NCBI RefSeq assembly: GCF_003428625.2
Contig: NZ_QVQT02000006.1
Location: forward strand, 372,001-436,000
Reading direction: 5' to 3'
DNA: 64,000 bases
Origin: Paracidobacterium acidisoli
GTDB taxonomy: Bacteria; Acidobacteriota; Terriglobia; Terriglobales; Acidobacteriaceae
Shown here: in pieces, positions 42,543 through 45,212 of the stretch
Position numbering within the stretch: the first letter of the stretch is position 1
Layout: every line of letters starts with the position of its first letter
Translations under genes and position numbers: made by a program
The notes under the pieces: model-generated
Seen by the model: only the letters and a program-made list of their open reading frames with translations
What the model was told of the DNA's origin: nothing
Databases searched by the model: none

Positions 42543-43754
42543 TCAATCGATGCGCTCATGGCGGTATCCCTGCGCCGCCAGCTCATTGCGAATCTCGGTA
42601 ATATGCTCCGCGCCGCGCGTCTCGAGGGTAAAGTCGATGACCGTATCGCCCAGGTTGACGCCGTAATAGGCGCGGTCGTGCGAGGTCTGCACGATATTCG
42701 CTCGCGCTTCGGCGATGATCTTCGTCAGCTGGTGCAGCGCGCCGGGACGGTCGGTCAGGTGTACCCGCAGGCGGGTCCGCCGTCCATCCTTGACCAGGCC
42801 GCGCTCGATGATACGGGCCAGCAGGCTCACGTCGATGTTGCCGCCGCAGACCAGCACCGCCGTCCGCTGTCCGGTCAATGAAGTCTTCTTCTGCAGCAGC
42901 GCAGCCAGAGCAGCCGCGCCAGCGCCCTCGGCCAGCGTCTTCTCGCGCTCCAGCAGAATCATGATGGCGTTGGCAATCTCCTCCTCGTCGACCGTCACCA
43001 GCTCATCCACATAGCGGCACACCAGCGGCAGCGTGCGCTCGCCCGCGCGGCGCACGGCAATGCCGTCGGCGATCGTCGCCTCGGCGGGAATCATCACCGG
43101 CTTTCCGGCCTCGCGCGCGCGCACCATCGAAGGCAGCCGCTCGGTCTGCACGCCTACTACGCGAATCTTCGGATCGGACTCCTTGATCGCGCAGGCCACG
43201 CCGCCGATCAGTCCGCCGCCGCCGATGGGAACCACCACCGCTTCCAGCTTCGGAATCTGCTCCAGCAGCTCGAGGCCGATCGATCCCTGCCCTGAGATCA
43301 CATCGTCGTCATCGAAGGGATGCAGAAAGGTCAGCCCGTCGGCCTCGCCCTGGCGCAGCGCTTCCGCATACGCTTCGTCGTAGTTGGCGCCGTGCAGCAC
43401 CACGTCGGCGCCGTAGTTTGCCGTCGAAGAGACCTTCACCAGCGGCGTCATCAGGGGCATCACGATCCGCGCCCGAATGCCGCGCTCGGTCGCATGATAG
43501 GCCACCGCCTGGGCATGGTTGCCCGCGCTCGCCGCGATCACGCCCCGCTTCCGCTCCACATCCGTCAGCGTAAGAATCCTGTTCAGCGCGCCCCGCTCCT
43601 TAAAGGCTCCGGTGCGCTGCAGGTTATCCAGCTTGAGAAACACCTGCTGGCCGGTCATCTGCGAAAGCGCAGCCGAATGCGGCGCAGGAGAGCAGTAGAT
43701 TACGTCGCGGATACGCTGCCGCGCGGCCTGGATCGATTCGAGTGTGACGCTCAT
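42543..43754 (-). CDS. ilvA: Threonine ammonia-lyase (threonine deaminase)
   Basis: PLP enzyme converting threonine to 2-oxobutyrate, the committed step to isoleucine. 403 aa: a catalytic domain with the PLP Lys in RTGAFKERGALN, the SAGNHAQAVAYHA loop and the glycine loop PIGGGGLIGG, then one ACT-type domain from about 325 (RLRVHLTDRPGALHQLTKII). A single ACT domain resembles the short TdcB/IlvA class. The ribosome site GAGAGGAAG is directly before the ATG. An Ile-rich leader ORF and terminator precede it, which supports a biosynthetic rather than catabolic role. Confidence 0.93.
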   Translation of the reverse strand: MSVTLESIQAARQRIRDVIYCSPAPHSAALSQMTGQQVFLKLDNLQRTGAFKERGALNRILTLTDVERKRGVIAASAGNHAQAVAYHATERGIRARIVMPLMTPLVKVSSTANYGADVVLHGANYDEAYAEALRQGEADGLTFLHPFDDDDVISGQGSIGLELLEQIPKLEAVVVPIGGGGLIGGVACAIKESDPKIRVVGVQTERLPSMVRAREAGKPVMIPAEATIADGIAVRRAGERTLPLVCRYVDELVTVDEEEIANAIMILLEREKTLAEGAGAAALAALLQKKTSLTGQRTAVLVCGGNIDVSLLARIIERGLVKDGRRTRLRVHLTDRPGALHQLTKIIAEARANIVQTSHDRAYYGVNLGDTVIDFTLETRGAEHITEIRNELAAQGYRHERID

Positions 43755-43771: not shown

Positions 43772-43809
43772 AAAAGAAAAGCCACCTTCCGCTCCCGGCG
43801 GTGGTGGCT
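43772..43809 (-). terminator. Attenuator hairpin in the ilvA leader
   Basis: On the minus strand AGCCACC (43809-43803) pairs with GGTGGCT (43786-43780), with an inner CCGC/GCGG pair around CGGGA, followed by TTTCTTTT (43779-43772). It lies between the leader ORF stop and the ilvA ribosome site. Read-through is needed for ilvA expression. A GGCGG at 43855-43851 could pair with CCGCC at 43801-43797 as an alternative, antiterminating fold. Confidence 0.8.
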
Positions 43810-43832
43810 GCTTTCTGCGATGTCTCTACTGC

Positions 43833-43946
43833 TTAACTTCGCTGCTCTGGCCGCCCCGCTCTGCTGGGTATCCCAATCATGGGCGTAATAATTCGCACAT
43901 CAATCATGATGGCGCGAATGGCGGAGATGAACAGGACCGAACGCAT
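43833..43946 (-). CDS. Isoleucine-rich leader peptide of ilvA
   Basis: A 37-codon ORF starting MRSVLFISAIRAIMIDVR and ending with TAA 24 nt before the attenuator hairpin. Eight of 37 codons are Ile (ATC, ATT and one ATA), including a tandem pair, plus several Val/Leu. The clustered end-product codons, the following hairpin with T-run, and the downstream gene for the first isoleucine enzyme match ribosome-stalling attenuation of ilv operons. An in-frame ATG at 43961 would add five residues. No strong ribosome site is seen. It begins 25-40 nt after the hutI stop. Confidence 0.72.
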   Translation of the reverse strand: MRSVLFISAIRAIMIDVRIITPMIGIPSRAGRPEQRS

Positions 43947-43985
43947 GACGAATGCTGGCATGAGAACAGAGCGCCGCCCGCAAAG

Positions 43986-45212
43986 TCAACTTTCGGCCAC
44001 GCGCACGCCGGCAGCGAAGACCGCGCAGCCGCCCGCGCCGAAGAAGTACGGCAGCTCGCGATAATCTTCCGCCTCGTGAATCGCAAAGTCCGCCGTCTTG
44101 CCCGCTTCGAGCGAGCCGATCTCGTGGCCGCGCCCCAGGCTGTGCGCCGCATTGATGGTGGCCGCCGTCAGTGCCTCCGCCGGCGTCATCTTCATCTGCG
44201 TGCAGGCCAGCGACATCACTATGCGCATCGACGGAGTAGGCGAAGAACCTGGGTTGAAGTCCGTCGCCAGCACCACAGCCAGCCCGGCTTCGATCATCGC
44301 CCGCGCCGCCGGATACTTCTGCGATCCGATGGCGTACACCGAGGCCGGCAGCAGCACCGGCTGCACGCCCGCGCGCTTCAGCGCCTCGATCGACTGCTCT
44401 CCGGACTGCTCCAGATGATCGCAGGTCGCCGCGCCCAGCTCCGCAGCCAGATCGGACGCGCCAAAGGCGGTGAACTGATCGGCATGCATTCTCAAACCCA
44501 GGGCATGCCGCTTCGCCGCCGTGAGCACGCGCCGCGCCTGCCCGAGCGTAAAGACTCCCGTCTCGCAAAAGATGTCGCAGTACTCCGCGAGTTTTTCTTC
44601 CGCGACACGCGGCAGCATCTCTTCGATCACCAGCCGCACGTACTCGTCGGCCTGTCCCGCATACTCTTCCGGAATTTCGTGCGCGCCGAGAAAGGTCGGC
44701 ACGCAGCGCAGCGGCGTTGTCTCACCGACGCGGCGAATCACGCGCAGAATCTTCAGCTCATCCTCGACCGTAAGCCCGTAGCCCGACTTCGCCTCGACCG
44801 TCGTCGTGCCGCCAGCCAGAAACCATCGCGCATACCGCTCGGCGCTCGCCGCAAGCTCCGCCTCCGAGGCCGCACGCGTGCGGCGCACCGTGGAGCAGAT
44901 CCCTCCGCCCTCCGCGGCAATCTGCCGGTAGGTCATGCCCGCGCAGCGCTTCTCAAACTCATCGGCGCGGTTCCCGGCAAAGACCAGATGCGTATGCGCA
45001 TCCACAAATCCTGGCGTTACGATGCGTCCTCCCGCATCGACGATCTCCGGATGCTCCGTCTGCGGCTCCATCTCCGCGAGCATACCCACCGCGGCGATCC
45101 GACCGTCGCGCACCAGCATCGCGCCGCCGCCAACGATGCCCAGCTCGCGCATCTCGCCGCCGGTTCGCGCCCGCGCCGGTCCGGCCAGCGTCACCACCTG
45201 CGCAGCATTCAT
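43986..45212 (-). CDS. hutI: Imidazolonepropionase
   Basis: Third step of histidine degradation: hydrolysis of imidazolonepropionate to N-formimidoylglutamate. 408 aa of the amidohydrolase superfamily; metal ligands in [10 protein letters not shown], His in GAHEIPEEY and MHADQF, and Asp in [13 protein letters not shown] start at ATG 45212 ([12 protein letters not shown]), like other HutI; GTG 45215 is close, and the frame is open further up to 45283. Last of hutH-hutU-hutI; it is followed on the same strand by the ilvA leader. Confidence 0.93.

Follow-up and report, generated by a model that had tools for sequence, protein, structure and literature searches.

In the window, a stretch of 64,000 nucleotides of Paracidobacterium acidisoli DNA (contig NZ_QVQT02000006.1), the gene for threonine ammonia-lyase, ilvA, lies on the minus strand after hutI, and between the two we located a short leader ORF, a candidate promoter and a putative intrinsic terminator (Table 1). 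The leader translates as MRSVLFISAIRAIMIDVRIITPMIGIPSRAGRPEQRS, and the first bases of its isoleucine codons are at 43928, 43919, 43910, 43904, 43892, 43889, 43877 and 43871. An alternative in-frame ATG at 43961 gives a 42-codon ORF, but this codon coincides in part with the -10 hexamer of the likely promoter, which makes the 37-codon ORF the likelier of the two. A GC-rich hairpin (AGCCACC-N16-GGTGGCT, 43809-43780) begins 23 nt past the leader stop, with the T-run directly 3' of it; the ilvA ribosome site, AGAGGAAG, and then the ilvA ATG follow downstream of the terminator.

Table 1. Positions of the leader elements and flanking genes at the ilvA locus, in window coordinates.
Feature	Position	Strand	Basis or remark
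hutI stop codon	43988-43986	minus	end of hutI at 43986
-35 element TTGACT	43984..43989	minus	sequence; overlaps the hutI stop codon (43988-43986)
-10 element TCTCAT	43960..43965	minus	CTCTG before it (TG-extended); 18 nt after the -35
Leader ORF, 37 codons, 8 Ile	43833..43946	minus	ATG 43946; stop TAA 43835-43833
CGAATTA motif, read CGA-ATT-A (Arg-Ile-x)	43889..43895	minus	in 38/43 promoter-defined loci, all in frame
Antiterminator left arm GCGGGGCGGC	43850..43859	minus	folding; within the leader ORF, 5' of its stop
Antiterminator right arm	43798..43808	minus	folding; overlaps terminator left arm GCCACCACCGC
Intrinsic terminator, AGCCACC / GGTGGCT hairpin and T-run TTTTCTTTT	43772..43809	minus	sequence; conservation with compensatory changes
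ilvA, threonine ammonia-lyase, controlled gene	42543..43754	minus	NF005600 (PRK07334) 497.7 bits and TIGR01127 491.5 bits, both above cut-off

A strict promoter and terminator scan of the locus found neither the promoter nor the terminator of the ilvA leader, because the -10 element has no A at position 2 and the hairpin loop is longer than 8 nt. Both predicted elements are recognised through conservation, not through consensus. Elsewhere in the window, two nadA riboswitch (RF03013) aptamers lie in tandem on the minus strand at 1156-1268, with scores (63.0 and 42.7 bits) that exceed the gathering score.

The genes leuA, leuB, leuC, ilvD, ilvB, ilvN and ilvC form a separate cluster in the same genome, beside a divergent LysR-type gene. 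No leader was seen when we searched at the leuA/ilvD/ilvB cluster and at the aspartokinase gene of this genome, and no citramalate synthase was found there above its cut-off. Given that the leu-ilv cluster lies elsewhere and has no detectable leader, ilvA appears to be separately controlled, at the isoleucine-specific step.

Conservation of the leader in related genomes

The ilvA loci of relatives came from two sources, 80 from named genomes and 80 as upstream regions fetched out of 200 genomes of the family, and were pooled into 138 distinct ilvA upstream sequences. The members of one alignment, A1, were chosen on CGAATTA, and many of them are closely related; motif conservation within A1 is circular given this selection, a circularity that selection on the promoter only (TTGAC, 17-18 nt, TG-extended -10, TCTG) avoids. 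That selection gave 43 regions, with near-identical copies removed. CGAATTA was present in 38 of the 43 and was in frame with the leader ORF in 38/38, and at these promoter-selected loci the first ATG past the -10 element shared the motif's frame in 37 cases and lay in a different frame in none. Neither promoter nor motif was present in 84 of the 138 upstream regions, so the element, though common in the family, does not occur throughout it. The same predicted arrangement of leader and terminator recurs in dozens of related species.

The spacing between the -35 and -10 elements was 17 or 18 in 39/39 leaders, with -10 elements mostly resembling TCTACT, TTTGAT or TTTCAT. This conserved promoter precedes the leader, and does not lie 3' of the terminator, in 39 of 40 leaders; no promoter was found for the remaining one. 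The leader start codon lies 6-14 nt from the -10 element in 36/39 leaders, the window among them with 13, and 24 nt from it in the other three; for the former, a start site taken as about 7 nt past the -10 predicts a 5' UTR of 0-7 nt. A Shine-Dalgarno-like string was present in 3/39. With the promoter so close to its ATG, the leader is probably translated in leaderless or near-leaderless fashion from this predicted start site, without a ribosome binding site. In Acidobacteria, about 13% of genes are leaderless by the estimate of a computational survey (PMC3160421).

At the isoleucine frequency of ilvA genes, 8 Ile in 36 codons of the window leader has a probability of about 0.004, so composition alone is only suggestive, and it is conservation that settles the reality of the leader. 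Ile accounted for 15.6% of codons in the leader frame of leaders selected on CGAATTA and for 1.8% and 1.2% in their other two frames; the figure for ilvA itself is 7.5%. Leaders also preferred ATT and ATA to ATC relative to ilvA (odds ratio 3.3, p 2e-12, conserved codon excluded), and Ile codons beyond the motif were enriched as well (p 9e-13), these p-values being optimistic for related sequences. Leader peptides are otherwise free to vary, sharing Ile richness and Arg-Ile. The leaders of some lineages (e.g. L152, L047) hold only 2-3 Ile codons, so that isoleucine specificity is weaker there.

The terminator was kept, with compensatory changes, in 41 sequences. An RNAalifold consensus on A1 recovered the terminator alone, since the antiterminator registers differ between lineages and were left unaligned by MAFFT; support for the antiterminator was instead taken from a per-sequence shuffle test, in place of a formal covariation count. 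Its arms co-vary between lineages, as GCGGGT/ACCCGC, GCGGGA/TCCCGC and GGGAGC/GCTCCC. The sequence-only reading had described a 37-codon ORF with eight Ile codons, followed by a hairpin with a T-run and by the ilvA ribosome site, and its coordinates and description hold on sequence and on conservation; the check that it proposed, on the Ile codons and the hairpin in relatives, was run, and both are conserved.

Ribosome position and the two competing pairings

The antiterminator in the window pairs GCGGGG.GGC (43859-43850) with GCC.CC.CCGC (43808-43798), and since its right arm overlaps the left arm of the terminator, the two structures are mutually exclusive. A competing GGCGG/CCGCC pairing had been read from the sequence beforehand; it is real, and longer than was claimed. 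In nearly all sequences the antiterminator arm lies on, or slightly 5' of, the leader stop codon, within range of a ribosome that terminates there, and the Ile codons are situated 5' of the arm.

For 41 sequences we folded the RNA 3' of the ribosome up to the terminator loop, taking it as free from 13 nt past the A-site codon, the textbook ribosome footprint. A ribosome placed on the conserved Ile codon allowed capture of the left arm of the terminator at a mean of 0.72 over the 41 sequences (0.80 in the window), compared with 0.23 (0.04 in the window) for one placed on the leader stop codon. The window pairing of 0.80 compares with 0.52 for shuffles (p 0.016), and pairing exceeded the mean of the sequence's own dinucleotide shuffles in 40/40 sequences (0.74 vs 0.48, Wilcoxon p 2e-12), with an individual p < 0.05 in only 20 of the 40. 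As shuffles of the released stretch give 0.48, capture does not come merely from more RNA being available. A stalled ribosome leaves the arm free at 93% of Ile codons compared with 77% of all codons; the last Ile codon of the window leader, at 43871, sits 12 nt from the antiterminator arm.

When the complete terminator was folded at equilibrium, it was preferred in many sequences even with a stalled ribosome, reaching in the window 0.98 when the conserved Ile codon was the stall site and 0.65 when it was the last Ile codon. The switch therefore requires the antiterminator to form first during transcription, as is usual for attenuators. With no ribosome, the terminator was favoured in the window (antiterminator 0.32).

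Probable attenuation and its rivals

The anatomy of an attenuator is present in front of ilvA, and it is conserved. We consider that the element is very probably a ribosome-mediated transcription attenuator sensing charged Ile-tRNA; the switch was modelled, and we infer translation, stalling and the response in vivo. Transcription would start from the dedicated promoter over the hutI end, a few bases 5' of the leader ATG. With ample Ile-tRNA, the ribosome would get to the stop codon and cover the left arm of the antiterminator, or release past it; with this arm masked, the terminator would form and transcription would end before ilvA. Under a shortage of Ile-tRNA, the ribosome would be held up at one or other of the eight Ile codons; the antiterminator would then form first, and RNA polymerase would read into ilvA. 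On this model ilvA would most likely be expressed only under isoleucine shortage. The sequence-only reading had proposed just this, attenuation by ribosome stalling in which Ile-tRNA charging controls a stand-alone ilvA, and the conserved Ile leader, the antiterminator, the terminator and the in silico response to ribosome position support it. Its further suggestion, that hut read-through would also be filtered by Ile-tRNA charging, is not supported as a design feature: hutI is upstream of ilvA in only 3/80 relatives (L005, L006, L009), and the leader has a dedicated promoter that shares sequence with the hutI stop codon, so any such filtering would be incidental. The probable lack of a ribosome binding site in front of the leader ORF had escaped that reading.

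The hut neighbourhood also underlies a different account, in which the hairpin is the terminator of the hut operon, the ilvA promoter lies further downstream and the Ile-rich ORF arose by chance. The hairpin does lie directly 3' of hutI, the strict scan sees no consensus promoter, and the Ile richness of the single ORF in the window is only at the p level of about 0.004 given above. However, relatives that have no hut gene upstream keep the entire arrangement, the conserved promoter lies 5' of the leader, and the leader frame and motif are conserved as well, which leaves this account exceedingly improbable; its hut-terminator part we rejected, as contradicted by conservation without hut. It is also very improbable that the leader ORF acts mainly through translational coupling, or as a small functional protein, and not through attenuation. 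Leader ORFs near genes can raise translation by reinitiation (PMC4833913), but here the leader stop is about 80-130 nt from ilvA, not 10-11 nt, with the terminator between, and a functional protein is at odds with peptides that vary so freely outside Ile richness and Arg-Ile.

The motif invites another alternative, a metabolite riboswitch, a T-box or a protein-binding RNA with CGAAUUA as its recognition element and the ORF secondary. CGAAUUA is indeed constrained beyond what an Arg-Ile codon pair needs, and it is found in the leaders of different operons. Yet a scan of the locus against Rfam 15 gave no T-box or other RNA family match at the gathering score (at a relaxed threshold, ctRNA and isrD matched the terminator hairpin, both below the gathering score and chance-like), the alignment shows no conserved RNA structure besides the terminator, the motif never occurs out of frame, and the Ile enrichment extends to codons beyond it. 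We judge this alternative very improbable, and return to the attenuator as the best explanation of the locus.

Only one feature, the conserved CGA-AUU-A, has no explanation in the classical attenuation model. Its pairing with the spacer 5' of the terminator gained a mean of 0.6 kcal/mol over shuffles, mostly not significant, and its pairing with the upstream leader was weakly above shuffles, with p < 0.05 in 7/41. As a 1:2 protector hairpin, these pairings are suggestive in some lineages but not general. A tentative idea, which we hold to be possible though doubtful, is that CGAAUUA is a shared cis-signal of phylum-wide, near-leaderless Acidobacteriota attenuators (ilvA, cimA-like, aspartokinase), in which the stalling of the ribosome or the pausing of RNA polymerase is timed by the codon pair CGA-AUU, or by the RNA itself, through a mechanism for which enterobacterial attenuators offer no known example.

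Related leaders and known attenuators

A covariance model of the element matched ilvA leaders and also related leaders elsewhere in the family and class; several of these matches rest largely on terminator similarity, and their assignment comes from inspection of each leader and the gene behind it, not from statistics. Among the branched-chain leaders, one (L169) precedes a citramalate-synthase-like gene, three (L188, L199, L204) precede ilvD-type and two (L200, L202) ilvB-type genes. Leaders of aspartokinase genes (L185, L190-L197, L201, L203) are rich in Thr, Ile and Met, several with one or two CGAATTA (Arg-Ile-Thr), and the motif is also found in cimA-like leaders. Terriglobia also have Cys-rich leaders with TGT runs (L189, L205, L207, L208, L214), which stand in front of siroheme synthase, nitrite/sulfite reductase-like and other genes probably related to sulfur. 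In the P. acidisoli genome itself, a Cys-rich leader ORF, MTNFASICPYMCRCCCDHRTCGCE, with a terminator lies directly 5' of a peroxiredoxin gene (L166, G000:C9:194370-194491), and from its sequence this looks like cysteine-responsive attenuation.

With the ilvA leader, the phylum Acidobacteriota gains a concrete, testable attenuator that matches no Rfam family. It suggests that the committed isoleucine step is under isoleucine-specific control, separately from the leu-ilv cluster, and draws attention to a broader group of leaders (branched-chain, Thr/aspartokinase and Cys) missed by gene callers. The CGA-AUU motif, together with likely leaderless translation, raises the question of how ribosome and polymerase synchronise on such leaders. 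We found no description of the ilvA leader attenuator in the open-access literature; the comparative study of attenuation by Lopatovskaya et al. in 2010 (cited in PMC4833913) may contain acidobacterial cases. In a survey of the same year, hardly any predicted attenuator of Acidobacteria could be linked to a function (PMC2965389).

Judged by those features that could be tested, the ilvA leader belongs to the ribosome-mediated transcription attenuators, a known kind. The attenuators of E. coli ilvGMEDA (ilvL) and thrABC consist of a short ORF with control codons and an antiterminator overlapping the terminator, and the position of the ribosome decides between them. The ilvA leader shares the control codons, the overlapping structures and the ribosome-position logic; it differs in preceding the single gene ilvA, in being Ile-rich and not an Ile/Val/Leu leader, in being probably leaderless and in having the conserved CGA-AUU-A motif. 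It is also like the described uORFs rich in branched-chain codons before branched-chain amino acid genes, which have been attributed to attenuation, but the gene here is ilvA and the leader looks unrelated, its identity having been checked only via the Rfam scan of the locus, with no match. A precedent for a leaderless leader ORF is trpL of Sinorhizobium meliloti, where the transcript starts at the leader ATG and the leader peptide may come from leaderless mRNA (PMC7298713); there, however, the codons are Trp and the operon is a different one, and the start site of the ilvA leader is only predicted. In Actinobacteria, leader ORFs with Cys codons precede cys genes, the mycobacterial cases lacking conserved terminator hairpins (PMC1262725); the Cys-rich leaders before Acidobacteriota sulfur genes resemble these, with the difference that the acidobacterial ones have a terminator hairpin.
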